Shown piece by piece: positions 16,130 through 29,356 of a DNA stretch of 45,493 nucleotides. Within the stretch, counting starts at the first letter, position 1. Each line of letters begins with the position of its first letter. A program made the translations under genes and the position numbers. The stretch comes from Muribaculaceae bacterium (GTDB lineage: Bacteria; Bacteroidota; Bacteroidia; Bacteroidales; Muribaculaceae): positions 1 to 45,493 of the forward strand of contig JAFTEU010000124.1 of assembly GCA_017453505.1 (NCBI GenBank). Direction: 5' to 3'. The notes below the pieces were generated by a model. It was not told where the DNA came from. It ran no database searches and saw only the letters and a list, made by a program, of their open reading frames with translations.

Positions 16130-17560
16130 TCAAATGTTGCCCTGGAGCAGCATGTCGATCAGCGTGGTCACGTCATCAATGTTGATGCGTCCGTCCTGAT
16201 CCACGTCAGCCTCGGCGGGTGCAGTGTCGGTGTTGCCTTGGAGCAGTATGTCGATCAGCGTGGTCACGTCATCGATGTTGATGCGTCCGTCACCATCCAC
16301 GTCGCCATATTTCACTTGGGGCTGAGGATCGTCGCCACTGGGGGCGTTGGGCGAGACATAACCCTCATAGGGGTACAGGTCAATGATCATGAAGAGGGCA
16401 TCGTTGAACTCCATGTACTGACCTTGAACGGTCACGTTGAAGGCACCGTACTGGAACCAGCCGTCACCGCGGCCATACCAGCCCCAGTTCACGTGGAATA
16501 ACCCATCGGCATCAATACCATCGACAACAAAGGCATGTCCGTCGCCGATATCCTCCATCGAGTAGGGGATGGGGTGGTAGGCCTCGATCTGGGCGGTCAT
16601 GAGTTCAACCCATTCCTCATCGGTGTAGTCGGTTTTGTTCCATGTGTCGCGTGAAGGCCATGCCTCGATGCCGAGGAGCTTGGCGTTTTCGCTGTAGCCC
16701 AACTTGATGAAGCCATCGGTCTGCTTGCGCACATTGCTGCCGCTGCCGCTGGGCGAGAAGTTCATCTCACAGGATTGAGCTGCGTAGTAGCACAACCAGG
16801 CCACTTCATCCTTTTGCTCGTCAGTGATGCCGGGAACCCATGTCAGTGAGCCACTCTCGTTGAACATCGTGTATTGATCGACGATTATATCATAGTCAAT
16901 CGTGCGTGCGGGCAGTGTGGGCTCTTGCACGTTCTGATAAGAGTTGCGGTAGCCAGGCAGGCTAGGCATGTTCTTGGGATATTCCCAGTAGTTAAGGATT
17001 TGCGCCATGGCGAGGCCTGCACATCCCACCGAGCTATAATCCACTTTATAACTATCGGGATCATAGTACTGGGGGCAATGGCGGTTGAAAGGATTACCTT
17101 GGGCCCAATTGCTCTTCATCAACGGGCCGATGGGAGTCCTGCGCTGGGCTGTCTTCATGGGCTGAGTCTCGCCCTTAAAGTTCTTGAGGACCTCGATCTG
17201 ACGTTTGTACCTGCCCAGATAGGCCTTGGTGTTCTCGGGAAGGGCATTCATGTCGATGTTGCCTTGGTCGCCATAGGCGAGCACCTGCTTGGCACGGTCG
17301 TCACCGGCGATGATGACCCAGCCGCCGCCCTTGATGTTGAACACATAGTAGGCATTGCCCTCGACACTCGATTTCTCGGTGTAGACCAGCTTGATGTCGC
17401 TCATGGCGGGAGCATTGAGCATGCCGCGGGTGGCAAGATGTTGCTTGACGAACTGGTTGGCGGCCTGACGGGCGGCCTGTGCGTCGATGCCAGCGGCACT
17501 GGCGGTCATTACACCGGCAAGAGCCAGCACGCAGCTAAGACTTAGTTTCTTGAAGTTCAT
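16130..17560 (-). CDS. secreted C10 (streptopain-like) cysteine peptidase with C-terminal dockerin-like pair
   Basis: A 476-residue exported zymogen. A signal peptide (residues 1-23) is followed by a Spi-type prodomain (about 25-135, with WVIIAGDDRAKQVLAYG) and a C10 catalytic domain. The nucleophile is Cys180 in SSVGCAGLAMAQ, His342 is in GDGHAFVVDG, and Asn358-Trp359 are in FHVNWGWYG; all are intact. Residues 419-476 are two dockerin-I-like repeats, each with a calcium-loop pattern (DVDGDGRINIDD and DVDQDGRINIDD) followed by the helix VTTLIDILLQG. The two repeats are almost identical at the DNA level (96-base offset). The gene has its own -7 element (17629-17622) and its own terminator. Confidence 0.9.
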   Translation of the reverse strand: MNFKKLSLSCVLALAGVMTASAAGIDAQAARQAANQFVKQHLATRGMLNAPAMSDIKLVYTEKSSVEGNAYYVFNIKGGGWVIIAGDDRAKQVLAYGDQGNIDMNALPENTKAYLGRYKRQIEVLKNFKGETQPMKTAQRRTPIGPLMKSNWAQGNPFNRHCPQYYDPDSYKVDYSSVGCAGLAMAQILNYWEYPKNMPSLPGYRNSYQNVQEPTLPARTIDYDIIVDQYTMFNESGSLTWVPGITDEQKDEVAWLCYYAAQSCEMNFSPSGSGSNVRKQTDGFIKLGYSENAKLLGIEAWPSRDTWNKTDYTDEEWVELMTAQIEAYHPIPYSMEDIGDGHAFVVDGIDADGLFHVNWGWYGRGDGWFQYGAFNVTVQGQYMEFNDALFMIIDLYPYEGYVSPNAPSGDDPQPQVKYGDVDGDGRINIDDVTTLIDILLQGNTDTAPAEADVDQDGRINIDDVTTLIDMLLQGNI

Positions 17561-17621
17561 AGTTTTTAATTGATTCGGGTTTATAAATAATTTAAGAAAT
17601 GTGTCGATCGCTTTGATTCGC

Positions 17622-17629
17622 CAAAATTA
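17622..17629 (-). promoter_or_regulatory. -7 promoter element (TAATTTTG) of the first C10 gene
   Basis: A minus-strand TAnnTTTG element 62 bases upstream of the start at 17560. No TTTG is seen at the normal -33 spacing. Confidence 0.45.
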
Positions 17630-17726
17630 TGAATTTTTTTTCAAATTCATCATTTTTTTCAAGAAAAATCGGTGCATGTCCCTGAAAACTTATCGAAACC
17701 TGCTATCCGCCCGTCACTGACCCTCA

Positions 17727-18698
17727 CTATAGCGCCAGCCTCATACCGATGAGGTCGCCCCGCAATGTGGGCGCAAAGTGGAACCGCTCACTCGTCCGGC
17801 AATACCTGCTCTCTCCGCTCCAGCCTCCGCCGCGCAGCACCTTGCTCTTTCCCGTCGCTGGCCCGGATGGATTAACTTGTTCTTGGCTATCATAGGGGGC
17901 GAACCAGTCTTGGCACCATTCCCACACGTTGCCGCTCATGTCGAGAATGCCTAGTTCGTTGGGGGCAAGTGTGCCGACGGGATGCGTTGTGCAATCGCCG
18001 CCCTTGATGTTATATCCCCACCAGGCCACTCGGTCGATATCATCGCTGCCGGCATACGGGTAGTCCTTGCTCTTGCTTCCGCCACGGGCAGCGAATTCCC
18101 ACTCGGCTTCGGAGGGCAGGCGGAACCGCTTGCCTGTCATGGCATTGAGCCTTGTGATAAACTGCTGGCAGTCGTTCCAGTTGACTCCTTCCACAGGACG
18201 CTTCAGGTTGCCGGTGAATCGGCTAGGATTGTTGCCCATCACGGCTTGCCACAGTTCTTGCGTCACCTCGGTTTCACCGATGGTGAAATCAGGCACAGTC
18301 ACTTTGTGGACGGGGGTTTCCCATTGGGACGCATTGCCATCGGTGCTTCCCATCCAGTAGGTTCCTCCTGCTACACGCACCATCCTGACCTTCACAGTGG
18401 ATGTTACGTCAACGATGACGATGTCATACTGCGGCCCTCGCAGCAGGATATCGATCAGCGATGCCAGGTCGTCGATGGTCACATGACCGTCATTGTCGAT
18501 GTCTGCGGCAGCGACATTGACTTGGTTCGGCCTCTCGGTCAGCAGGTAATCGATGAGAACCGCCACATCATCAATACTCACGCTGCCATCATTGTTTACG
18601 TCACCTTGTTGGATTTGAGCCTGCATGCTCAGTGAGCCAAGCAGTAGCCACATCAGTAGTGTAGCAGTTCTCAATAAAAAATGAATATAATTCTTCAT
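17727..18698 (-). CDS. secreted FGE/SUMF1-like protein with N-terminal dockerin-like pair
   Basis: A 323-residue exported protein. After the signal peptide (about 1-27) come two dockerin-like repeats at residues 32-88 (DVNNDGSVSIDD and DIDNDGHVTIDD, each with a leucine-rich helix). From about residue 105 a formylglycine-generating-enzyme-type fold follows, with TYWMGST, ETEVTQELWQAVMG, FRLPSEAEWEFAARGG, DMSGNVWEWCQDWF and VLRGGGW. The first of the paired active-site cysteines of true FGE appears to be missing: the C-terminal segment reads SGESRYCRTSERF. It is therefore more likely a binding or structural member of the family. It is the last gene of a three-gene operon with the C10 peptidase at 20967 and the subtilisin. 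Confidence 0.85.
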   Translation of the reverse strand: MKNYIHFLLRTATLLMWLLLGSLSMQAQIQQGDVNNDGSVSIDDVAVLIDYLLTERPNQVNVAAADIDNDGHVTIDDLASLIDILLRGPQYDIVIVDVTSTVKVRMVRVAGGTYWMGSTDGNASQWETPVHKVTVPDFTIGETEVTQELWQAVMGNNPSRFTGNLKRPVEGVNWNDCQQFITRLNAMTGKRFRLPSEAEWEFAARGGSKSKDYPYAGSDDIDRVAWWGYNIKGGDCTTHPVGTLAPNELGILDMSGNVWEWCQDWFAPYDSQEQVNPSGPATGKSKVLRGGGWSGESRYCRTSERFHFAPTLRGDLIGMRLAL

Positions 18699-18736
18699 GT
18701 CCTTGCTTGATATAGAATTTCACACGCTAACTATTC

Positions 18737-20932
18737 TCATAGCCTGATGAGGGTCGATCCCGTAGTCGAGGCCTTGCCGGTCGTCACTTGCACTGCATAG
18801 ATTCCTTGGGGCAGTTCCGAGAGGTCAACAACAGCGTGACTGCTGCCGATGGTGGCCGTCAGCACCTGTTCGCCGCTGGTCGAGAAGACGGTAACCGTGG
18901 CAGTTGATGCCTCGTCGCGCTCCACGGTGAGCTGTGTGCCAGTCAACGTGATTCTAGCAGCCTCGGGCTGATGGAGCGACAATTCAGTGATATTGGACAT
19001 CTCCAGCACATAGAGCAACCCCTGGTAAACATCAATCTGGCCGTGGCCGTAGATGTTGTTGGGATAGCTCATGTCCTGTTCGGGATGGGTGCTGGTGTGG
19101 GCGATCACGTCAAGCACATCCTCGGGTGTAAGTGTCGGGTCGGCTTCCAGCCACAGTGCCACGGCTCCGGCTACCACAGGCGATGCCATGCTCGTGCCTG
19201 TCTGTGCCATGAAGTAGTAGTCCTTGCCGTTATAGGTTACCTTGTCGGTGATATTGGCGCGCTCGCTCTCAAAGTCGTCGTAGAAGCTGTTATAGGCGGC
19301 CTTGATGTTCATGCCGGGGGCCACCACATCGGGCTTGATGACACCGTCAAATGTGGGACCGCGCGACGAGAATTGCGTGATGTGGCCGTTCTGGTCGGGT
19401 GCAAAGCTCACCATGCTGGTGTTGGTGTTACCCTCAATATTGGTAAACGTGGTCTTGTAGCCCGTGGCACCCACGGCGATCACGCGGTCGAGCACGGCAG
19501 GCCAGCACACGGTATAGTCGCGGTCGGTGTGGCAATAGGCAGGAGCCCCGCTCACGTTGACAAACGGGCAATACATCAAGTCGGTATAGAGCCATGCGGG
19601 CTCGTCGCTGCTGAGGAGACAGACAGCGCCACACAGCAGCAGGTATCCGATGTTGGGCATGTCGCCCTTGATGTGATAAACCTTGCCTCTAGGGTCAGGA
19701 TAGTCGTTGCGGTAGATGTGCAGAGCCACGGAACCCATCGACACGTTCACCGTCAGGTGGCATGTGTCGCCCTGCAGGCTGTCGATGCTGTCGGTGTCGA
19801 AGGTGATCGTCCCCTCGATGTTGCCGCCCATGAGCTTCATTCCCAGGAAGTCGAACCTCACCTGTTGGTTGCCAGGGGTGACGATGTCCATGTCGATGAG
19901 GCCGCCACCGCCCAGACCATTGATGATGCCCACACCTGCGGCGGGATCACTGGCCAGCTTATGCATGTGGGCAGCGTTGGTGCCGAAGTTGCCTGCCGCG
20001 GCCACAATGATGCGTCCCGGGCCGACGAGCTGCTCGAGAGCCTCGCCCTCGAGGATGCGTTGCCGCGTGAGCGTGATACTCTCACAGCTGCTCAGGTTGA
20101 TCACGCAGGGCTTGTTGTCGAGCGCCGCGCGGTCAAAGATGTACTTGAAGCCCAGTACCGCCGTGGCCGATGTATGCTCATCGGGGTTCTCAAAGTCTCT
20201 CCTGTAGGAGTTGAAGTCGGCCAGATAGATGTCGCTCTCGGGTGCCATGCCCTGGAACTTGCCATCAACGGCACTGCCTGCCATGGTGCCCAGCACGTGT
20301 GTGCCGTGGGTGTGGCTGTTGGTGTGCTGCGAGTGGCCGTAAGCGGCGATTTCCTCGGCCGTTTCCAGTGCGTGGCCGAGTGTGCCGTCGTCATTGGGCC
20401 ACAGGAAGTCGTAGTAATACTTGACACGCGTCTGGCCGTCGCCATCAAGGAACGACGGATGAGTGAAGTCAAAGCCGATGTCAAATACACCCGCAGCCAC
20501 ACCCTTGCCCGTGAAGGCTTGTGGCAGTCCAGTGCCTTGATAGACTCTGGTAGCATCAATCTGGCCAGGTGTAACGTCCATCGCAGGTTGTGGCATGCGT
20601 TCTGCCTCGATGCGCTCGATGCGCGAGTCCATCGATAAGGCAGCAACACTCGTCACAGGGATGTCGACGATGTAGATGCGGCCGACGCGGTCAATCACAC
20701 GGCAGCCATAGGTCTCAAGCAGGGCAGGACTCTGACCACTGTCCTGAAACGTCAGCAACGCCATGAAGTGTTTCTCTTGACGGGAAGCCCCGTTGATGGA
20801 ATTACCAGTTGCCCTGGCCCGGTTGCAGATGTCGATGACACCTGTCGAGACCCGGTGCGGATTAATTGTTTGCTGGGCCGCCAGTGGCAAGGCCAGCAGC
20901 AACAATAGCATGAGAATTGTTGTCTTTTTCAT
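18737..20932 (-). CDS. secreted subtilisin-like serine protease (S8) with a T9SS-type C-terminal domain
   Basis: A 731-residue exported protease. The start is the ATG at 20932 (MKKTTILMLL, a clean signal peptide); a longer frame merely overlaps the dockerin end of the upstream gene. The triad is intact: Asp151 in GVFDIGFDFTHP, His209 in HTHGTHVLGTMAGS and Ser581 in GTSMASPVVAG; Asn315 in AAAGNFG is the oxyanion-hole residue. An insert of about 200 residues separates the last two regions. The final 75 residues (TVTVFSTSGEQVL then LPQGIYAVQVTTGK) resemble the type A C-terminal sorting domain of the type IX secretion system. Unlike its neighbours it has no dockerin module. It lies 34 bases after one C10 gene and 38 bases before the FGE-like gene. 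Confidence 0.9.
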   Translation of the reverse strand: MKKTTILMLLLLLALPLAAQQTINPHRVSTGVIDICNRARATGNSINGASRQEKHFMALLTFQDSGQSPALLETYGCRVIDRVGRIYIVDIPVTSVAALSMDSRIERIEAERMPQPAMDVTPGQIDATRVYQGTGLPQAFTGKGVAAGVFDIGFDFTHPSFLDGDGQTRVKYYYDFLWPNDDGTLGHALETAEEIAAYGHSQHTNSHTHGTHVLGTMAGSAVDGKFQGMAPESDIYLADFNSYRRDFENPDEHTSATAVLGFKYIFDRAALDNKPCVINLSSCESITLTRQRILEGEALEQLVGPGRIIVAAAGNFGTNAAHMHKLASDPAAGVGIINGLGGGGLIDMDIVTPGNQQVRFDFLGMKLMGGNIEGTITFDTDSIDSLQGDTCHLTVNVSMGSVALHIYRNDYPDPRGKVYHIKGDMPNIGYLLLCGAVCLLSSDEPAWLYTDLMYCPFVNVSGAPAYCHTDRDYTVCWPAVLDRVIAVGATGYKTTFTNIEGNTNTSMVSFAPDQNGHITQFSSRGPTFDGVIKPDVVAPGMNIKAAYNSFYDDFESERANITDKVTYNGKDYYFMAQTGTSMASPVVAGAVALWLEADPTLTPEDVLDVIAHTSTHPEQDMSYPNNIYGHGQIDVYQGLLYVLEMSNITELSLHQPEAARITLTGTQLTVERDEASTATVTVFSTSGEQVLTATIGSSHAVVDLSELPQGIYAVQVTTGKASTTGSTLIRL

Positions 20933-20966
20933 AATCTTCTTATTAAAGTGATGGTGGTTTACTGAA

Positions 20967-22292
20967 TCATGTGTTGGGACCATGTAGCAGCTGGTCGATG
21001 AGTGCTGCCACATCGTCAATGCTGACATTGCCGTCGCCATCCACGTCGCTCCCAGGTGTGCTCTCGCCATTGCCCAACAGCAGGTCGATGAGGGCGGCCA
21101 CATCGTCGATGCTTATAATCCCGTCGCCGTTCACATCGCCGGCGATGAATTGTTGCATGCCGGGTACAAAGCCCAGCACCATGTCTTGATAGGCATTGAA
21201 CTGCAGGCCGCGCACGTCGAGTAGAGCGATGTCATAGTAGCCGTCATGGTTGCCGTACCATCCCCAATTCACGTGCACCAATCCCTGCTCGTCGTAGCCA
21301 TCGATGATAAATGAGTGGCCAGCGACACCCAGTCCGCCCTGGTTGGGGTTGAAGTTCATGTGGACACCCTGGTAATACAGCGGATGGCCCTGGCTCAGTT
21401 CTTGATAGACCATGTCCATCCACGATGGTTCGTCATACTGGTTGCGCGCCACGATGTGGGCATCCTTGCTGTAGCCTAAAATCTGTTGTGCTCCGTATAG
21501 TGCAGAGATGTTGCTCGATCCCGACTCATCGGCACCGTAGGTCATCTGGCTGATGAGGCCGCAGTGGTAACTCAGCAAGGCAACGGCGCGTCCCTGAATC
21601 TCGGTATACTCGCCCTCATAGTCCTCCAGCATGTTGTCCCAGTCATAGGTGGCATCAAAGTTTGCCGTGGCACCCTGGTTGCCGATCATGAAATCGCAAG
21701 TCGCTGCCGCATGGGCCGGATAGCGGTAATAGTATGCGATTTGGGCCAATGCCGTCGCTACGCAGCCCACAGCGCAGTGGGCCTCGTCGGGGCGGTAGTC
21801 GCTGCAGATTTCGCCATCGGCAGTGGGACACCAGTTGGAAAACGGGGCATCCTGGCCCCACCGGGTCTTGATTAATGCCTCGACGTGGCTCGGGTACTTG
21901 GAGGGGTCGGGCAGGGTAGTGGTGAATGCTTTGTCCTGTTGCATGAGAAGGCGTGACACCTCCTCAATGCTGGCGCAATACCATTCAAAGCCAGGATTAG
22001 CGCCACGTCTGCTCTCAAGAGGGGTATCACTGACCGCCAGCACTGCAGGCAGACGGTCGTCGGCGGCGATCATGGCGAAGCCGCCACCCATGGGGTCGCC
22101 ATAGATGCTGTAGGCAGCGCTTGACCGCAAGACTTGGATGCCGTTAGCCGCACTGAGCCTGTGGCCGTGAGTCATGAGTGCTCCGATGGCGGCTTTTCTC
22201 ATGGCTCGCTTGTCACGTTGCCCGCTCCAAGCAGGCATCGCAACGGCTACAGCCATGAGAAGGATAGTTGTAATTCGTTGAATTCTATACAT
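20967..22292 (-). CDS. secreted C10 cysteine peptidase with C-terminal dockerin-like pair
   Basis: A 441-residue exported peptidase, first gene of an operon with the subtilisin and the FGE-like protein. A signal peptide covers residues 1-23 and a Spi-type prodomain follows (GGGFAMIAADDRLPAVLAVS). The catalytic residues are Cys177 in CAVGCVATALAQ, His326 in AGHSFIIDGYDE and Asn342-Trp343 in VHVNWGWYG. The dockerin-like pair occupies residues 385-441, with loops DVNGDGIISIDD and DVDGDGNVSIDD. The prodomain is more divergent than in the other four copies, so the substrate or activation step may differ. Confidence 0.9.
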   Translation of the reverse strand: MYRIQRITTILLMAVAVAMPAWSGQRDKRAMRKAAIGALMTHGHRLSAANGIQVLRSSAAYSIYGDPMGGGFAMIAADDRLPAVLAVSDTPLESRRGANPGFEWYCASIEEVSRLLMQQDKAFTTTLPDPSKYPSHVEALIKTRWGQDAPFSNWCPTADGEICSDYRPDEAHCAVGCVATALAQIAYYYRYPAHAAATCDFMIGNQGATANFDATYDWDNMLEDYEGEYTEIQGRAVALLSYHCGLISQMTYGADESGSSNISALYGAQQILGYSKDAHIVARNQYDEPSWMDMVYQELSQGHPLYYQGVHMNFNPNQGGLGVAGHSFIIDGYDEQGLVHVNWGWYGNHDGYYDIALLDVRGLQFNAYQDMVLGFVPGMQQFIAGDVNGDGIISIDDVAALIDLLLGNGESTPGSDVDGDGNVSIDDVAALIDQLLHGPNT

Positions 22293-22445
22293 AGTTGTCA
22301 GGCTTACTTAAGTTTCGCAAGTAGATAACTTGCTCAATGTTTCATGTTTAAATGTTAAAGAGTTGTCTCTTAAAAAACTGAAAAAATCTGGCAAAAGCCA
22401 TCATCTGGCATTTCAAAGTCCATCTTTAACCGTTAACCTTTATCC

Positions 22446-22476
22446 TCAAGTTTCTAAAGTCACTTTAGAAACTTGA
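22446..22476. repeat. palindromic repeat, copy 1 (also terminator-like)
   Basis: Perfect 15-base arms (22446-22460 and 22462-22476) around a single C. It lies 8 bases after the stop of the C10 gene ending at 22484. On the minus strand it continues into short G-rich tandem units (GGATAAA, GGTTAAC, GGTTAAA). The arm sequence is related to the palindrome at 43760-43799. It could act as a terminator but has no T-run. Confidence 0.7.
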
Positions 22477-22483
22477 AAATCCT

Positions 22484-23893
22484 TTAATCTGCATGGAGCA
22501 ACAGGTCGATGAGCGAACTCACATCACCGATGGTTACCTCGCCGTCCTCGTCGACATCGGCGCTGGGGTGCCCTGTCGTTTCACCACGTAGCAGCAGGTC
22601 GATCAAGGCACTCGCGTCATTGATGCTGACCTCGCCGTCCTCGTCCACATCGCCTAGCAGCAGGGGCTTGTCAGGAATGACAAGCACACATTCCTGGTAA
22701 TAGTCAAAGTCATATTCGCTCGGGTCGAGCGCGCTGCTCATGAAGTAACCGTCATACTTGCCAGCCCAGCCCCAGTTGACGTGGAAGCGTCCCTGGCTGT
22801 CATAGCCGTCGATGACAAAGGCGTGTCCACCTGCGTAGCCGTAGCCGCTATAAATGAGCGGATGACCGGCATCCAAGTCGGCCCGCAGAGCCGCATCCCA
22901 GTCACCCGCATACTCATCGCGTGAACGGTACTCGGTCCGGTAACCGAAGAATTCCTCCAGCGCCAGTTTGATATAGCCAGTGGCCGAGGCGCTGCCCTCG
23001 GCACCATAGCTCATCCTTACTGAGATGCCCACGTCGCTCATGAGCTTGGCAACCGCATTGCCGTAGATGCCATCAGGGTCGGGAATCGTGTCGCCATGGT
23101 CATCAATGATGTGAATCACGACATGCCCGTTCTCGTCCAGGTAGCCATGAGAATTCTTGTCGGCATAGAGGTAAATGTCCCTCATCAGGTCCCACTGATA
23201 GACTGACTGTGAGAAATCGGCGCTCAAGGTGACCTCGCGGCTGTCGGCGTAAGGCAGGTTTGGGTTATAAAATGTCACATAAGTTGTATAGCTGAAGCTC
23301 CCTGTGCCTTGCTTGGGCCACTCATAGTAGTTCATGACTTGGGCGGTGGAGGTGGCAGCACAGCCAGTACATGCATGACCACCATAGATCAGGTGCGGAT
23401 CATCGCCGGATGGAGCCTCGGGGCACAAGTCATTGTATGGACGGCATTGGTGCCACCGCGTGGTGAGCAATGGAGCGACGCTCGTGCTCAACTGCCTTGC
23501 GGTCAATGGTTGTGCTTCAGGATGATTGCGCAGGAAATCGACTTGACGTTGCAGATCGGCCAGCCATGCTGTGAGTGCCTCGGGCATGTCGTCAGGATTA
23601 AAGGTGCCGCTCATGCTGTAGCCGCACACCGGTTCCAGACGGTCATCGCCACTGACGATGATGAAGCCGGCATCCTGCCTCTGGTTGAACACGTAATAGT
23701 CGGGCAGGCCATCGGGCGAAAGTCCTTGATGAGTCAGTGCCAGACTTGACGTGGCGGCTTTGTTGAATGTGCCGCTGGATTGACTGACAAAACGCTGTGC
23801 AATAGCTTGTGCCTCCCGCGGGGTGATGGGTGCTGCCAGCAGCATTGTTGCCGTCAGGGCAAGTGACATGAGTGAAGAAGTGAATCGTTTCAT
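22484..23893 (-). CDS. secreted C10 cysteine peptidase with C-terminal dockerin-like pair
   Basis: A 469-residue exported peptidase. The start is set at the ATG at 23893, which gives the signal peptide MKRFTSSLMSLALTATMLLA; the 48-codon longer frame has no signal features. The Spi-type prodomain spans about residues 25-130. Catalytic residues are Cys178 in ACTGCAATSTAQ, His357 in GGHAFVIDGYD and Asn373-Trp374 in FHVNWGWAG. The dockerin-like pair is at 413-469 (DVDEDGEVSIND and DVDEDGEVTIGD). This pair and its linker (GETTGHPSADV) are nearly the same as those of the unrelated protein at 27602-29356. A near-perfect promoter lies 115-145 bases upstream. Confidence 0.9.
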   Translation of the reverse strand: MKRFTSSLMSLALTATMLLAAPITPREAQAIAQRFVSQSSGTFNKAATSSLALTHQGLSPDGLPDYYVFNQRQDAGFIIVSGDDRLEPVCGYSMSGTFNPDDMPEALTAWLADLQRQVDFLRNHPEAQPLTARQLSTSVAPLLTTRWHQCRPYNDLCPEAPSGDDPHLIYGGHACTGCAATSTAQVMNYYEWPKQGTGSFSYTTYVTFYNPNLPYADSREVTLSADFSQSVYQWDLMRDIYLYADKNSHGYLDENGHVVIHIIDDHGDTIPDPDGIYGNAVAKLMSDVGISVRMSYGAEGSASATGYIKLALEEFFGYRTEYRSRDEYAGDWDAALRADLDAGHPLIYSGYGYAGGHAFVIDGYDSQGRFHVNWGWAGKYDGYFMSSALDPSEYDFDYYQECVLVIPDKPLLLGDVDEDGEVSINDASALIDLLLRGETTGHPSADVDEDGEVTIGDVSSLIDLLLHAD

Positions 23894-24006
23894 AGATAAA
23901 GAGACATTAATTTTAGTGAATAAACAAGATATTTGTGGTAGTTGTGTCCTGGTTACAGATTGAAACTGGCTGTTTGCCGCCTCAAGGTTCTGGAACCAGC
24001 TCGCTA

Positions 24007-24038
24007 CAAATATAAAATTTAGAGTTGAGTTGTACAAA
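24007..24038 (-). promoter_or_regulatory. promoter of the C10 gene at 22484-23893
   Basis: Minus-strand TTTG (24038-24035), a 20-base spacer and TATATTTG (24014-24007) match the consensus exactly. Confidence 0.8.
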
Positions 24039-24164
24039 TTTCTTGAGTGAAAATCTCGGGAAACGACCGTTTATTTATGTAAAAATAATAAATATAAGGT
24101 GTTTATTCACCATGCCCGTAGGGTAAGGGTTTGCATTACAGTTTGATTACGATTTGTAATAATT

Positions 24165-24201
24165 ATTGAGGCGAAATGGTAAATCCCCATTCCGCCTCAA
24201 T
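24165..24201 (-). terminator. terminator after the C10 gene ending at 24236
   Basis: Fifteen-base arms with one mismatch (ATTGAGGCGAAATGG against CCATTCCGCCTCAAT) enclose a seven-base loop, 34 bases after the stop codon. Confidence 0.7.
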
Positions 24202-24235
24202 CATGTCAACTTGTTGTTGAGATATGTTCTTCTAA

Positions 24236-25627
24236 TTATTCTCCGCTTAGCAACTTGTCGATGAGGGCCGTCACGTCATCAATCGAGATGTTGCCGCTAC
24301 CATCCACGTCGGCGGCTGCGAGATCAACGCCAGTGGCATTCTGCGAGAGCAGATAATCGATCAGAGCCGTCACGTCATCGATGTTGACGTTGCCGTCCAT
24401 GTTGACATCACCGATAAGAACAGTTACAGGGGGCTGCCAGCCCTCGGGCGGCTGGATGCCGATGAGCATCTCATGGCCTGAGTTGAAGCGCAGGTAGTCA
24501 CCCTCGCGGTGGGTCATGTTCAGAGCAGTCGATACATACCAGCCGTCGCATGTGCCATACCAGCCGAAGTTGTAGTGGAACTTGCCCTCGGCATTGTAAC
24601 CGTCGCAGATGAAGGCATGGCCGCCGCCACCAGCAACATCGTTGGCAGCGTAGAGGATAGGACGACCTGCGTCAAGTTCGGTCTTCATCATGGCTTCCCA
24701 CTGGGCGGTGGTGTAACTGCTGCTGTACCAGCCGCTTTTCTGGACATACTGGGCGCTGCTGCGATAGCCGAAGGCCTTCATCGCAGCCAGCTGGTCGCTG
24801 GTGTAGGCACCACTGCCTTCAGGACTGTAGCCCATCTCGACAGCCTGACCGCAATAACGGCCCAACTTGGCTACCTCTTGGGCCTGGGCATCGGTATAGG
24901 TATCTTGAACGAGCTGGCTGTTGTCCCAGTCCCAGTGGCAATAGCTGGGAATCATCAGGCTGTAGTCAAATGTGGTGGCAGGCAAGGCCTGAACGGTCTT
25001 GCGGATGCTTGAGCAATAGTAGGATGAAACCCCGCTGCAGCTCTCGGGATACTGCCAGTACTTCATCACCTGGGCCATCGCGGTGGCCACACAGCCCACG
25101 ACGCAATATTGATTGTTGTAGACGGGGCACTGCCAGTCGTAGGGGGCTTCCTGGCCCCAATTGGTCTTGATCAAAGGATCCACGCCTGTTGTCGCTTTGA
25201 ACGACTGAGGGGCGGGAACCAGGTCATCACCCTCATAGGTCTGCAGGTATTCAATTTCGGCTTTAAAACCATTGAGCAAGCCTTGCAGGCCATAGGGCAA
25301 GCGGTTGAAGTCCAACTGGCCCTTGTCACTGTAGCCCAGTACCTGGGGTGCGCGGTCCTCGCCGGCGATGATGATAAAGCCGCCGCCTTTCAGGTTGAAG
25401 GCATAGTAGTCGTTGGCACCGGCAACCGTGCTCGAGGCCTCTGTGTGGATGAGCCGCAAGTCGGCAGTAGCAGGGGCTCGGAAAGTACCCTTGGCGGCTT
25501 GATTGTGGATGAAATTGCCTGCCGCGATGCGTGCGGCATTGGCATCAATGTTTCCGGCACTGGCCGTGAGTGTGGCCATCGCCAGTGATGCAAGCATCAT
25601 TGAACTTAGGAGATTTTTCATTTTCAT
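24236..25627 (-). CDS. secreted C10 cysteine peptidase with dockerin-like pair (tandem paralogue A)
   Basis: A 463-residue exported peptidase: signal peptide 1-24, Spi-type prodomain about 26-132 (GGGFIIIAGEDRAPQVLGYS), then the C10 domain with Cys179 in CVVGCVATAMAQ and His337 in GGHAFICDGYN. The usual Asn-Trp pair reads Asn353-Phe354 (HYNFGWYG). The dockerin-like pair is at 406-463; the second loop reads DVDGSGNISIDD, with Ser replacing the third acidic ligand. It is very similar over prodomain and catalytic domain to the next gene upstream (25677-27338), from which it is separated by 49 bases, so the two are a tandem duplication in one transcript. Confidence 0.9.
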   Translation of the reverse strand: MKMKNLLSSMMLASLAMATLTASAGNIDANAARIAAGNFIHNQAAKGTFRAPATADLRLIHTEASSTVAGANDYYAFNLKGGGFIIIAGEDRAPQVLGYSDKGQLDFNRLPYGLQGLLNGFKAEIEYLQTYEGDDLVPAPQSFKATTGVDPLIKTNWGQEAPYDWQCPVYNNQYCVVGCVATAMAQVMKYWQYPESCSGVSSYYCSSIRKTVQALPATTFDYSLMIPSYCHWDWDNSQLVQDTYTDAQAQEVAKLGRYCGQAVEMGYSPEGSGAYTSDQLAAMKAFGYRSSAQYVQKSGWYSSSYTTAQWEAMMKTELDAGRPILYAANDVAGGGGHAFICDGYNAEGKFHYNFGWYGTCDGWYVSTALNMTHREGDYLRFNSGHEMLIGIQPPEGWQPPVTVLIGDVNMDGNVNIDDVTALIDYLLSQNATGVDLAAADVDGSGNISIDDVTALIDKLLSGE

Positions 25628-25676
25628 AGTTTGAAGTAGTTTTAAATGATTATTTTATGTTAATGGATGTGTTTAC

Positions 25677-27338
25677 TTAATTGCCGAGCAGTACATCAAT
25701 CAGCAGTGCTACATCGTCGATGGTGAGTGCGGGGTGCGAGCCTTCCAACAGATAGTCGATCACGGTCGCCACGTCATCGATGGTGAATGCAGAGTTATAC
25801 TTGGCCATGTGACCCACTACATTCAGGCTGCCGCTGTCGCAGTTGACCTGGGAAGTGATGCGCTGCATGGAGCCCTGGTAGTAGTGGAATTGCATGCTAT
25901 AGGAGCCGGCCTCGAGGGTTGCGGGCAGGGTGATGGTGCTGGACACGGTGCTGCCCTGTTCGAAGTCGGCGACAGCCACCTTAACGACGGTGCTCGTTGC
26001 CATGCGGCGGCCTGTAGCACTATTGATCGAGAACATCAGGTTAGCATTGTCATAGGTCGAGTGGATATTGACGTTTGAGGCCTCAATGCTTGCACTCTCA
26101 CCCAGGATGAGAAGACCGTCCTGCACATTCAGTTCATCGGCCGAGATGACGCAATAGGTGGGAGGAACAACACCCAGGAGCATCTCATGGCCTGAATTGA
26201 AGTGCAGCGCATCACCGTCGCGGTGGGTCATGTTCAATGCTGTGGAGACATACCAGCCGTCACACGTGCCGTACCAGCCGAAGTTGAAGTGGAACAGCCC
26301 CTCTGCATTGTAACCGTCGCAGATAAAGGCATGGCCTCCAGCTGCTGGGTCGCTGGCCGAGTACAGGATGGGCTGGCGCTTGTCAAGCTCTTCCTTGATC
26401 ATTGCTTCCCATTCCTCGGTCGAATAGTACTCCGAGCCCCACCAGCCGCTACGCTCCACGTCGCGGGCATCACTGCTGTAGCCGAAGGTGATCATGCCGC
26501 TCAACTGGCTGCTGGTGTAAGCGCCACTTCCTTCGGGGCTGTACCCCATGTGTACAACCTGGCCGCAATAACGGCCCAGCTTGGCTACCTCTTGGGCCTG
26601 GGCATCGGTATAGGTGTCCTGGATGAGCTCGCTACGGTTCCAATCCCAGTGGCAATAGGAGGGGAGCAACTTGTTATAATCAATGCTGGTTTCGGGCAAG
26701 GCGGGAATTGTCTGGCCGATATCATAGCAATAGTATGAGTTGATTTCAGGTAGAACCGTCGGGTAACGCCAGTAATTCATTACCTGGGCCATTGCTGTGG
26801 CAACGCAGCCCACGACACAGTACTCGCCATTATAGACGGGGCACTGCCAGTCGTAGGGATCTTCCTGACCCCAATAAGTCTTGATTAGGGGGGCGATACC
26901 GCCTCCGCTGGTAGCACGGAGAGCGGGTGTGGCATTCAAGTCAGGATGAGCCTGCAGGTACTCGATCTCCTCTTTGTATCCACGCATCAGCGCCTTGAAG
27001 TTGTCAGGCAGATTGTTGAAGTCCAGATGTCCCTGGTCACTATAGCCCAGCACCTGGCTGGCACGGTCTTCTCCGGCCATGATGATAAAACCGCCTCCCG
27101 TGATGTTGAAGGCGTAATACGCTTTGGCAGTCTGGTCGGCTTGCGAGGGCTCGCTGTAAGCCAGTTTCAGGTCGCTCATTGCGGGTGCCTTCAGTGAACC
27201 AGGACGGGCAGCCGCATGCTGTCTGATGAAATTACATGCCTTTGCTTGTGCCGTATTGGCATCAATGTTGGCGGCATTGAGGTTTGTAGTGGCAAGGACT
27301 ACTAGAGCACATGCACTCAATAGATTCTTTATTCTCAT
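25677..27338 (-). CDS. secreted C10 cysteine peptidase with an extra domain and a loop-less dockerin remnant (tandem paralogue B)
   Basis: A 553-residue exported peptidase, first gene of the tandem pair. Signal peptide 1-23, Spi-type prodomain about 25-130, then Cys178 in CVVGCVATAMAQ and His336 in GGHAFICDGYN, with Asn352-Phe353 in FHFNFGWYG. Unlike its paralogue it has about 110 extra residues after the peptidase domain (about 395-507), probably a beta-sandwich (GSTVSSTITLPATLEAGSYS). The last 46 residues keep both dockerin helices (FTIDDVATVIDYLLEG and LTIDDVALLIDVLLGN), but both Asp-rich calcium loops are gone. A near-perfect promoter lies about 50-80 bases upstream. Confidence 0.88.
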   Translation of the reverse strand: MRIKNLLSACALVVLATTNLNAANIDANTAQAKACNFIRQHAAARPGSLKAPAMSDLKLAYSEPSQADQTAKAYYAFNITGGGFIIMAGEDRASQVLGYSDQGHLDFNNLPDNFKALMRGYKEEIEYLQAHPDLNATPALRATSGGGIAPLIKTYWGQEDPYDWQCPVYNGEYCVVGCVATAMAQVMNYWRYPTVLPEINSYYCYDIGQTIPALPETSIDYNKLLPSYCHWDWNRSELIQDTYTDAQAQEVAKLGRYCGQVVHMGYSPEGSGAYTSSQLSGMITFGYSSDARDVERSGWWGSEYYSTEEWEAMIKEELDKRQPILYSASDPAAGGHAFICDGYNAEGLFHFNFGWYGTCDGWYVSTALNMTHRDGDALHFNSGHEMLLGVVPPTYCVISADELNVQDGLLILGESASIEASNVNIHSTYDNANLMFSINSATGRRMATSTVVKVAVADFEQGSTVSSTITLPATLEAGSYSMQFHYYQGSMQRITSQVNCDSGSLNVVGHMAKYNSAFTIDDVATVIDYLLEGSHPALTIDDVALLIDVLLGN

Positions 27339-27385
27339 GATTCTTGAAAGTTAGGTTAGTTACGCTGATTTTGATATTTTGCTGC

Positions 27386-27417
27386 CAAAAGTAGTAAGTT
27401 TTTGATAAAATGCCAAA
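27386..27417 (-). promoter_or_regulatory. promoter of the tandem C10 operon
   Basis: Minus-strand TTTG (27417-27414), a 20-base spacer and TACTTTTG (27393-27386) match the consensus exactly. Confidence 0.8.
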
Positions 27418-27521
27418 GAAATATGAATATATTGTGTAATTTTCCTTGAAAAGAGTGGTCGCTCCATCATTTTACTTTTGTGGTCTTGTCAATTTATGAG
27501 TTAAGGCAACTTTATAAACTA

Positions 27522-27562
27522 GGGGAGGAAGAAACGATGACAATCAGCGTTTCTTCCTCCCC
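27522..27562 (-). terminator. strong hairpin after the large dockerin protein
   Basis: Perfect 15-base arms GGGGAGGAAGAAACG/CGTTTCTTCCTCCCC with an 11-base loop, 40 bases after the stop codon at 27602. Confidence 0.7.
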
Positions 27563-27601
27563 TCCTTGAAGGCGTTATCAGAGATAAACGATCAATTCTC
27601 G

Positions 27602-29356
27602 TTACATCTTGAGCAGAATATCAATCAGGCTGCTCACATCACCGATGCTTACCTCGCCATCCTGGTCAACGTCGGCTGCGGGATGTCCTGCCGTTTCACC
27701 CATGAGCAGCAGGTCGATGAGGGCACTCACGTCACTGATGCTTAACTCACCGTCCTGATCAACATCACCAATCAGAACCTGTGCCCCACTTCCAGCATCA
27801 CCGTTATAGATGCTCACGGGCAAGGTAAAGGCGGCAACTACAGAGCTCTGGCCGATGGTGTTGGTCAGTGTAGAGGTCTCCTCACCGCTGTAGATGGTGG
27901 TGGTGTTCTTGCCCATGCGGCCCATGACATACAGGTTATTCTGGTCGCACACGGCAGTGCAGTTCTGGATATCGTTGGAGTTGTTCATCAGCACCCACTG
28001 GTCACCGGCGCTCAGGTCCTCGATGTTGTATCGCTGGATGAACATGTTGTTGATGAGCACGTGACCGTAGGCATAGACGCTGCTCTTGTCATCCTTGCTC
28101 TCAAACACACCGTTGAAGCCAGCCTGGTTGGTGCCATACTCGGTGGCACCCAGCCATGAGCCGTCTTCCTTGTTGAGGCGAAGCAGCATGCCGTCGCGGG
28201 TCTTGCTCGACCAGTCGTGGCTATTTCCCTGCTCGTCGGCCAAGTTGGCGCGTACCTTGCCGGTCAACCACATGTTGTCTCCAATGACGTTAACAGTCAG
28301 TTTATTATAGATGGCACCCTTGTAACTGTCGAGGATGGTTTTGGCCCACTCGACGTTGAGGTCAGTGTCCATGCAGCCTACCAGCAGGTCACGGTAGTTT
28401 TCGCCCTGACCTTGAGCCAGCTTGGTGCCGTCCAGAGAGATTGGGTTGTCGCTCTCGATGTAGCCGGCGAAGTAGATCTTGCCCTCGTTCATCGTCAGGC
28501 TAGCGATGTTGGCAGATGTTGTGGTACCCTCTTGGACCAGGCTCTTCTTGTAGTTGCCTTGTGCGTCAAACTTAGCGATGAACAAGTCACCGCGGGTCTT
28601 CTGAGAATCGCCATTCCATCCCTCGCTGCTCTGCGAGGTCAAGGTAGTGCCGTCAAGGGTAATGCTCGTGACAAACCTGCCGCTCACGTAGAGGTTGTCC
28701 TCGCTATCGACAGTGATGTCGCCAATGTACACGGCATCGGCGGTATAGGTGCTGGTGGCGTCAGGCATGGGAGTGTTGTCCACTTGGATCATCTTGTGCC
28801 ACTCGATCTCGCCCTGGCCGTCCACCTTGAGGATAACGACTTGATAGAAACGGTTGCCGTCTGTCAGCTGCCAGTCCAGGGTGGTGTTGGCACCCTTGGC
28901 ATCGACAAAGTTGATTTTGCTGTTTTCCTGGCCTGCGGTGTGGCGCAGCTTGGCTACCAGATAGGCCCCACCATCGCTTGTGGCGGCTACCATGCCGTTG
29001 TTGGCGGCACCGTCACCGCTAGTGCTATAGACGCTCCACATGGGGGCTCCTGTCTGGGCATTGGTCTTGACGAGCACCATCGAGTTGTTGTAGCTGGTGC
29101 TGCCATGGTTGGTGCCTGTGCCCACCACTTGGTCGCCGAAGGTGATCTGCTGCTCCTCGGTGGTCGTGCCGCAGGAGTTAAACACCAGCAGGTTACCATC
29201 GCTGGACATAGCGATGTTGTAGCCGATGTTGGCGAGCATTGCACCGCCGTCGTTCTGCCAGCTGAAGTTGTTGGCCCACATCAGGGTGGGAGTCTGAGCG
29301 CTTGCCATCATTGCACTGGCGGCAAGACCCAGCATGAACATGTAACTTTTCTTCAT
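27602..29356 (-). CDS. large secreted repeat protein with C-terminal dockerin-like pair
   Basis: A 584-residue exported protein with signal peptide MKKSYMFMLGLAASAMMASA. The long middle part consists of repeating strand-rich units with phrases such as GDITVDSEDNLYVSGRF, DLFIAKFDAQGNYKKS, KIYFAGYIES and GMLLRLNKEDGSWLGA, which look like the SBBP/beta-propeller repeats of extracellular proteins. No catalytic motif is visible. The dockerin-like pair occupies about residues 527-584 (DVDQDGELSISD and DVDQDGEVSIGD). It is transcribed alone, with a -7 element at 29416-29409, and is divergent from the redox cluster. Confidence 0.8.
   Translation of the reverse strand: MKKSYMFMLGLAASAMMASAQTPTLMWANNFSWQNDGGAMLANIGYNIAMSSDGNLLVFNSCGTTTEEQQITFGDQVVGTGTNHGSTSYNNSMVLVKTNAQTGAPMWSVYSTSGDGAANNGMVAATSDGGAYLVAKLRHTAGQENSKINFVDAKGANTTLDWQLTDGNRFYQVVILKVDGQGEIEWHKMIQVDNTPMPDATSTYTADAVYIGDITVDSEDNLYVSGRFVTSITLDGTTLTSQSSEGWNGDSQKTRGDLFIAKFDAQGNYKKSLVQEGTTTSANIASLTMNEGKIYFAGYIESDNPISLDGTKLAQGQGENYRDLLVGCMDTDLNVEWAKTILDSYKGAIYNKLTVNVIGDNMWLTGKVRANLADEQGNSHDWSSKTRDGMLLRLNKEDGSWLGATEYGTNQAGFNGVFESKDDKSSVYAYGHVLINNMFIQRYNIEDLSAGDQWVLMNNSNDIQNCTAVCDQNNLYVMGRMGKNTTTIYSGEETSTLTNTIGQSSVVAAFTLPVSIYNGDAGSGAQVLIGDVDQDGELSISDVSALIDLLLMGETAGHPAADVDQDGEVSIGDVSSLIDILLKM

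Follow-up and report, generated by a model that had tools for sequence, protein, structure and literature searches.

A probable T9SS-anchored, protease- and LRR-rich docking system of dockerins and cohesins in a Muribaculaceae bacterium

An island of secreted proteins in the genome of a gut bacterium of the Muribaculaceae is best explained as part of a cellulosome-like docking system, anchored by T9SS and rich in proteases and LRR proteins, that would operate through type I dockerins and cohesins, a reading to which sequence comparisons lend a probability of about 0.74. Given roughly a hundred dockerin-tagged secreted proteins and likely cohesin sockets with an apparent anchoring tail, assembly probably takes place on the cell surface, much as in cellulose-degrading clostridia. 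The dockerins would plug secreted enzymes into cohesin domains; the cohesin proteins of this genome, given their signal peptide and C-terminal T9SS-like domain, should leave the cell through the type IX system and stay attached to its outer face, where dockerin-bearing C10 peptidases, LRR, FGE-like and other proteins would dock on them. Elsewhere in the genus, a second tier may be formed by scaffoldins that carry as many as six cohesins and end in a dockerin. In the C10 peptidases, the dockerin takes the position at which their counterparts in two sister genera apparently have a T9SS tail.

The window (the whole stretch of 45,493 nucleotides that was analysed) holds eight consecutive minus-strand ORFs for secreted proteins at 16130-29356 (Table 1), as an initial sequence-only reading had reported, and Pfam bears out its assignment of five C10 peptidases, one S8 subtilase and one FGE protein; the propeller likeness of the eighth protein, however, stays below threshold. 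All five C10 peptidases also match the I69 inhibitor. Dockerin_1 (PF00404) lies above its cut-off in six of the eight proteins (28.2-41.5 bits), and with E-values of 2e-6 to 2e-10 these matches are far beyond chance; the dockerin reading is supported, and the island modules are classed, from their sequences, as type I dockerins. When the module of the first protein was compared with the PDB by phmmer, 2ccl and 1ohz (xylanase Y chains, which we take to be dockerins) ranked top and calmodulins lower down. Seven paired modules of the form D-x-(N/D)-x-D-G had been claimed, and six stand; in the seventh, both calcium loops are gone and both helices (two ...IDDV..(V/L)ID.LL) are kept relative to its intact paralogue, and the Pfam scan of this protein gave no PF00404 match, nor were two F-hand repeats found in it.

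Table 1. The eight island proteins, all coordinates being those of the window
Protein	Position	Strand	Pfam match (bits)	Dockerin module	Remarks
C10 peptidase with I69 inhibitor domain, signal peptide and C-terminal dockerin	16130..17560	-	C10 147.6; I69 75.5; Dockerin_1 38.8	16145-16309	
FGE-sulfatase-like secreted protein with N-terminal dockerin	17727..18698	-	FGE 170.3; Dockerin_1 41.5	18441-18605	Module right behind the signal peptide, not C-terminal
S8 subtilase with C-terminal T9SS type A sorting domain	18737..20929	-	S8 132.6; PF18962 31.3 (cut-off 27)		No dockerin; sorting domain at 18749-18934, also TIGR04183 36.4 bits (cut-off 23); ORF as listed begins too early: ahead of the probable start around 20929 lie 58 codons, most of them shared with the end of the adjacent gene (20967-22292)
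C10 peptidase with C-terminal dockerin	20967..22292	-	C10 187.3; Dockerin_1 29.6	20985-21143	
C10 peptidase with C-terminal dockerin	22484..24037	-	C10 186.6; Dockerin_1 33.9	22496-22657	Likely start near 23893 (chosen by script)
C10 peptidase with C-terminal dockerin	24236..25627	-	C10 192.8; Dockerin_1 36.3	24248-24412	62% identical to the next protein over 456 positions
C10 peptidase with extra domain and degenerate dockerin	25677..27338	-	C10 186.1	25680-25793 (degenerate)	
Secreted repeat protein, weakly beta-propeller-like, with C-terminal dockerin	27602..29356	-	Dockerin_1 28.2	27614-27769	SBBP E 0.007, below cut-off

The genome-wide count of dockerin-like proteins that the same reading had called for comes to 105 matches in 105 different ORFs, one of them below the PF00404 cut-off, and a system specific to the island was rejected on this ground. 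By a crude rule, 98 of these ORFs have a signal-peptide-like N-terminus; 83 of the modules end no more than 10 aa from the C-terminus and nine lie inside the first 75 aa. Division into two halves with D at positions 1 and 12, that is, into two calcium-binding F-hand repeats, is seen in 98 of the 105, and one half module ends at a stop (C96:6840). Across the genus, each of 25 genomes has at least 29-122 dockerin modules among the matches listed, with up to 119 candidates scored per genome; another series of dockerin counts, with up to 28 scored candidates per genome, is likewise to be read as "at least".

The cargo is not purely protease-based. Among 104 of the 105 carriers scanned with Pfam (the protein at C96:6840, with a stop within its module, being omitted), at least 21 C10, four S8 and three M6 peptidases were counted at E<=1e-3, together with at least 18 LRR_5, eight CotH, four FGE and four alpha-amylase proteins, in categories that may overlap. 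At E<=1e-15, the only catalytic glycoside hydrolase families in this cargo are GH53 (two) and alpha-amylase (two); as cellulases and hemicellulases do not dominate the 104 carriers, the system is termed cellulosome-like rather than a cellulosome.

A search for cohesins with PF00963, which the sequence-only reading had proposed, gave no match above the cut-off (24.1) in this genome, the best reaching 16.5 bits (E 0.016, at C18:7053-7382). PF00963 alone was rejected as a way to decide whether a partner exists, for it misses the cohesin-like domains that the genome does hold: a purpose-built profile (A6) finds four of them, on contigs C18, C153, C4 and C21, and between one and 15 in each of the 25 genus genomes. 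Since they score under the Pfam cut-off, the four are called divergent cohesin relatives and not PF00963 members. Because A6 was built with the C21 domain among its rows, the A6 score of that domain is no independent result; a 26-row profile from which it was left out scores it at 26.6 bits. A possible fifth stretch (C23:8150, 16.1 bits, E 0.8) was left uncounted. Wider profiles lead to solved structures: one of 70 domains (A7, comprising 66 of 71 cohesin segments, five shorter ones being omitted, plus four from L111, L113, L125 and L127) retrieves 5n5p from the PDB at 4e-7 and further cohesins as well, and 29 of its 70 domains individually match PF00963 at E<=0.1. For a profile of 47 genus-only domains (A10), the five best PDB matches are all cohesins (5n5p at 4.9e-5, the next four at 0.015-0.024), and in three genomes (G003, G058 and G111) A6 and PF00963 pick out the same domains. 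At the level of profiles, the cohesin-like domains are homologous to solved cohesins. Rather than the genome-wide absence of any binding partner, which had been named as part of what would tell against docking, four candidate cohesin domains are present.

Each of the four is the only cohesin of its protein, which begins with a signal peptide and ends in a T9SS-like domain, an arrangement that favors the earlier suggestion of a cell-surface receptor even though its PF00963 test was negative. No tandem-cohesin scaffoldin was found in this MAG (88.8% complete, 188 contigs), only single-cohesin proteins, whereas multi-cohesin scaffoldins with a dockerin and an anchor occur in genus relatives. Among 20 relative loci (L184-L203), six cohesins behind a signal peptide and before a full dockerin (SP-COHx6-DOC) were seen twice (L184, L185), SP-COHx2-DOC once (L197), SP-COH-DOC four times, and, in three cases (L187, L198, L199), a signal peptide with two or three cohesins and only half a dockerin at the end, frequencies that are not estimates because the loci were picked for several matches or long ORFs; in 10 of 10 pairs at these picked loci, the scaffoldin gene adjoins a gene ending in dockerin, cohesin and tail. 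A profile of the tails (A8) retrieves the gingipain C-terminal domain from the PDB (7pq4 at 1.1e-6, 5hfs at 2.6e-6), with WD40 and NHL propellers ranked above it, and nine of 22 single tails match TIGR04183 weakly at E<=1 (best 1.4e-5). SprA is encoded at full length (2679 bits); the presence of T9SS was nevertheless rejected as a discriminator, being uninformative when SprA is found in 206 of 218 genomes of the order.

Dockerins and cohesins also keep company across the Bacteroidales. With a cohesin match defined as PF00963 at E<=0.01 or A6 at E<=0.001, all 16 genomes with at least five dockerins have one, against 58 of the 202 others (218 genomes); counting against the association, of the 141 genomes in which no dockerin was matched, 16 still have cohesin matches. 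At dockerin positions 10, 11, 17 and 18, identity is 0.77 within genomes and 0.34 between them, compared with 0.92 and 0.91 at the calcium ligands and 0.68 and 0.52 elsewhere, as calculated from those modules of this genome that split into halves (seven of the 105 being omitted) and from seven other genomes represented by their best Pfam scorers rather than a random sample. Such likeness within and difference between genomes is expected if dockerins follow their own cohesins. To see whether scaffoldin dockerins have a specificity of their own, three were compared in this way, with mixed results: that of G219 best fits its own genome (0.91), although it is itself among the ten G219 modules compared; that of G228 fits G218 (0.78) and its own genome (0.75) alike; and that of G227 is closer to G228 (0.49) than to its own genome (0.39).

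These patterns bear on what else the modules might be. The EF-hand pair could be a calcium-stabilized cap or fold-stabilizing module and the cohesin-like domains unrelated beta-sandwiches; binding is a prediction, some modules are N-terminal or degenerate, and four cohesins face 105 dockerins in this genome, all of which suits a cap. A cap, however, has no need for genome-specific residues at positions 10, 11, 17 and 18, for the SP-COHn-DOC architecture or for dockerin-cohesin co-occurrence, and the sandwiches retrieve solved cohesins from the PDB, so this explanation is held to be unlikely. Still less probable is that no cohesin is involved and that the secretion system, or a receptor in the membrane, recognizes the dockerin directly as an alternative signal for sorting or anchoring. 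The dockerin does occupy the C-terminal place of the T9SS-like tails on C10 peptidases of sister genera, and Pfam-recognized T9SS tails are rare in this genome (four PF18962 matches at E<=0.01, two of them over the cut-off); against this stand the cohesin-like domains themselves and the nine modules near the N-terminus, where, to our knowledge, no T9SS signal sits.

That the system is foreign or decaying, through clostridial contamination or as relics with lost partners, might be read from the one degenerate island module and the half module at C96:6840, but it is largely refuted and extremely improbable: all 25 genus genomes are dockerin-rich and have cohesin-like domains, two dockerin carriers adjoin sprA, and the motif is genome-specific and unlike the known clostridial ones. 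Surface docking through cohesins remains the preferred reading, although we know of no outer-membrane route for dockerin proteins without a T9SS tail, which counts against it.

One rather unlikely extension would supply such a crossing. Cohesin-dockerin pairing may act as a cargo adaptor for type IX secretion: in the periplasm, a few carriers with signal peptide, cohesin and T9SS tail would collect dockerin proteins by the dozen, and the complexes would leave through the translocon. In this genus, a common plug would then have replaced the T9SS tails of the separate proteins. Such a swap would account for proteins that lack a T9SS tail and end in a dockerin at the position of the tail that C10 peptidases from sister genera apparently bear. 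The latter (G025, G139) belong to the same peptidase family and the same taxonomic family, yet five of the seven found have, by eye, T9SS-like tails in place of a dockerin, L141 having none; NCBIfam T9SS models gave only sub-threshold matches, in two of the six scanned (L139, cut by the locus end, was omitted).

Among known systems, type I dockerins and cohesins build the cellulosome on scaffoldins such as CipA and Ruminococcus flavefaciens ScaA/ScaB/ScaE. The clostridial and ruminococcal cellulosomes share with the predicted system the dockerin on enzymes, its near-symmetric halves, cohesin arrays with a terminal dockerin, and anchoring proteins that combine a cohesin with a surface-attachment tail; here, by contrast, the host is Gram-negative, a T9SS-like tail replaces the SLH or sortase signal, the cargo is rich in C10 peptidases and LRR proteins, and this genome has single cohesins only. 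Closest in its many dockerins and few cohesins is, from the excerpts available, the Ruminococcus albus type, with one or no cohesin, where dockerins are interpreted as surface anchors of individual enzymes (PMC6118326, PMC8865330); unlike it, this genome has at least four cohesin-like domains on T9SS-like-tailed proteins, and multi-cohesin scaffoldins exist elsewhere in the genus.

The expectation that a protease-based docking system in Bacteroidota would be new holds in part. Excerpts of earlier papers already place dockerins in Bacteroidetes and on proteases (PMC7260996, PMC7480376), and Bacteroidetes cohesins are in print too; no report of T9SS-anchored cohesins or C10-dockerin proteins in Bacteroidota was found among open-licence papers. 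In the camel rumen, the sections available of one account list Bin136 (Bacteroidetes) with five dockerins and a cohesin-bearing count of one, name it among bins with 2-4 tandem cohesins, and list Bin129 (Bacteroidetes) with two cohesins and no dockerin (PMC6071333); they differ from the present case in that cohesins occur in only two of 32 Bacteroidetes bins, with at most 11 dockerins per Bacteroidetes bin, and they hold no link to anchoring or T9SS. Another camel-rumen study, as excerpted, gives cohesins only in Firmicutes_A bins (PMC9177762), and a phylogenetically distinct cohesin group from cow rumen (Bensoussan et al., 2017, as cited in PMC5742341) could be prior art. The puzzle raised by a rumen gene catalogue, of Bacteroidetes dockerins without recognizable cohesins, has as one answer, in an available passage, cohesins "too distantly related to be recognised" (PMC7260996), an answer that the present profiles and the four named genes make directly testable. 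The genome-specific dockerin motifs would likewise supply new candidate orthogonal plug-socket pairs. In Cloacimonadota, a scaffoldin that is anchored through T9SS and accompanied by peptidases bearing dockerins has been inferred; Candidatus Stygibacter, in the passages available, likewise has a tandem-cohesin scaffoldin, a conserved C-terminal domain for cell attachment, and GHs as well as S8 and C25 peptidases that carry dockerins; it differs in phylum and in its one large scaffoldin with CBMs, and those passages mention neither C10 peptidases nor dockerin-cohesin-tail anchors (PMC8542988). If the docking reading is correct, members of the Bacteroidales would possess a large surface docking system with cargo rich in proteases and LRR proteins, in which T9SS fills the role of the clostridial S-layer or sortase anchors.

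The eight consecutive minus-strand secreted genes recognized by the sequence-only reading in the window, which belongs to a MAG of 2.99 Mb (188 contigs; completeness 88.8%), were borne out, while its seven paired dockerin-like modules were revised to six intact dockerins and one degenerate copy. The S8 protein of this island has no dockerin and instead bears a T9SS sorting domain above the NCBIfam cut-off, and the five C10 peptidases share 33-43% pairwise identity, except for the pair at 24236 and 25677 (62%). The genome-wide count proposed in that reading revealed that dockerins are not confined to the island: 105 PF00404 (Dockerin_1) matches fall in 105 different ORFs, of which 98 have a signal peptide-like N-terminus (by a crude hydrophobicity rule), two a possible lipobox, 83 no more than 10 aa between the module and the C-terminus, and nine the module within the first 75 aa. 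Among 104 carriers scanned (Pfam E<=1e-3), peptidase families comprise at least 21 C10, four S8, and three M6 members, alongside at least 18 LRR_5, eight CotH, four FGE, and four alpha-amylase proteins. All 25 genomes searched in the genus contain PF00404 matches (29 to at least 122 per genome, scoring being limited to 119 initial candidates); in two further genera of this family, the counts are one and zero.

The same reading had suggested a search for cohesins (PF00963), which returned from the source genome a single sub-threshold match (16.5 bits) in a 2409-aa protein, C18, that ends in a dockerin, a cohesin-like domain, and a tail; two further proteins, C153 and C4, end likewise. Beyond these three domains themselves, their profile found in this genome just C21 (E 0.1) and C23 (0.8), both weakly. 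Against a 26-row profile of the three plus 23 related loci from rumen-type MAGs (titled uncultured Prevotellaceae, Bacteroidales, Porphyromonadaceae, and Muribaculaceae), C21, a 209-aa protein in which a signal peptide is followed by a cohesin-like domain and a tail, scored 26.6 bits, and a further profile (A6), built with C21 and without the C18, C153, and C4 domains, recovers those at E 1e-41 or better. Because a 70-domain profile searched against all PDB sequences matched the scaffoldin chain 5n5p (4e-7) and then a run of further cohesins, 29/70 domains individually matched PF00963 at E<=0.1, and domains of three genomes (G003, G058, and G111) are detected by A6 and PF00963 alike, the cohesin-like domains are assigned by profile comparison to the cohesin superfamily as divergent members, though the four from the source genome lie below the Pfam cut-off. 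To rule out order-level outliers driving the PDB result, 47 genus-only domains were run; these matched 5n5p at 4.9e-5, and the four following matches were likewise cohesins (0.015-0.024).

Loci and architectures recorded in the source genome and its relatives
Location	Genome	Feature
window:3472-4521	source	peptidyl-arginine deiminase family protein, Porphyromonas-type (PAD_porph), 391.6 bits
	source	second PAD_porph protein, bearing a dockerin
window:25680-25793	source	degenerate dockerin; calcium loops deleted from both halves, helices retained
window:35345-39406	source	TonB-dependent receptor plug protein, then DUF4876 protein
window:40886-43756	source	M16 peptidase, after the preceding pair
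C96:6840-6941	source	dockerin match broken by in-frame TAG past first half
C129:6910-17307 (L081, L134)	source	two dockerin-bearing proteins immediately upstream of sprA (T9SS translocon gene)
L202:1-2208	G241	single ORF, cut by stretch end: signal peptide, cohesin, dockerin, then FGE-like sequence (by eye)
	G227, G228	scaffoldin: signal peptide, six cohesins, dockerin
	G227	scaffoldin: two cohesins, dockerin
	G219, G234, G235, G238	scaffoldin: one cohesin, dockerin
	G220, G221, G228	scaffoldin: two or three cohesins, then Ig-like stretch, half a dockerin only

All ten scaffoldin genes listed above for genus relatives G219-G221, G227, G228, G234, G235, and G238 adjoin a gene ending in dockerin, cohesin, and tail; the downstream neighbour of the C153-type gene, judged by eye, is a lipoprotein-peptidase-like gene at each of three loci inspected. 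Across 218 evenly drawn Bacteroidales genomes, most families being represented by one or two, dockerins matched in 77, PF00963 in 67 at E<=0.01 (above the cut-off in 56), and A6 in 17. A cohesin match by either model occurred in 16/16 genomes with at least five dockerins vs 58/202 others (Fisher p 1e-8, relatedness ignored); 16/141 dockerin-negative genomes nonetheless have one. Four genomes of other families (G003, G048, G094, and G196) are rich in dockerins and also have one long ORF containing several PF00963 matches (the longest, in G094, of 8081 aa), and the order may harbor additional scaffoldin systems.

Dockerins of eight genomes (7-20 best-scoring modules for each of the seven others) are equally conserved at calcium-ligand positions within and between genomes (identity 0.92 and 0.91), while positions 10, 11, 17, and 18, which are cohesin-contact positions in clostridial dockerins, differ sharply (0.77 within vs 0.34 between; remaining positions, 0.68 and 0.52), suggesting that the dockerins of a genome have a partner in common. 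The consensus reads NIDDV..LID in the source genome, TSADI..IYN in G228, and NVSDV..IN in G232, where the four positions are invariant in 40/40 halves. Recent spread of one module in each genome would produce within-genome uniformity, but would not pick out these four positions, at which 300 label permutations gave a maximum difference of 0.041 vs 0.43 observed. Among three scaffoldin dockerins compared, the best fit was not in every case to the genome of origin. In Ruminococcus flavefaciens, one report places dockerin contacts at 11 and 15 and ties near-identical halves to dual binding (PMC5429695). The degenerate island dockerin retains I10, D11, I17, and D18 in both halves, so that it could be either a relic or a plug that needs no calcium.

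The source genome probably encodes a T9SS, judging from SprA, which is matched full-length; SprA also occurs in 206/218 order genomes. The tails of cohesin-like proteins are likely T9SS tails: a 22-tail profile matched gingipain C-terminal domain entries in the PDB (1.1e-6 to 2.6e-5) at chain ends, although WD40 and NHL propellers outscored these, many by partial matches, and, at E<=1, 9/22 tails matched TIGR04183 (type A sorting domain) and 3/22 the type C signal. In two dockerin-poor genera of the family, 5/7 C10 peptidases carry similar-looking tails by eye (T9SS models matched 2/6 scanned, below cut-off), and the dockerin occupies the place of this tail.

Given the observed modules, partner domains, architectures, co-occurrence, and variation by genome, dockerin proteins would probably dock calcium-dependently onto cohesins whose tails the T9SS would anchor, with surface proteolysis and adhesion as the presumed benefit. 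Dockerin proteins might leave the periplasm unaided; that they travel bound to cohesin-tail carriers seems improbable.

Rumen Bacteroidetes MAGs are described as having dockerins without cohesins, in a role termed unclear (PMC7260996); camel-rumen studies place cohesins in 2/32 Bacteroidetes bins, one with five dockerins, as stated in the text (PMC6071333), or confine them to Firmicutes_A (PMC9177762); and peptidases are commonest among dockerin proteins with a catalytic domain in a rumen consortium (PMC7480376). An open-licence literature search returned no report of Bacteroidales cohesins anchored by the T9SS, of the many dockerins that accompany them, or of C10 cargo. Nevertheless, since dockerins, Bacteroidetes cohesins, and, in Cloacimonadota, an inferred scaffoldin with a T9SS-type C-terminal domain and dockerin peptidases (PMC8542988) have already been published, the docking system is best regarded as a variant of something known.
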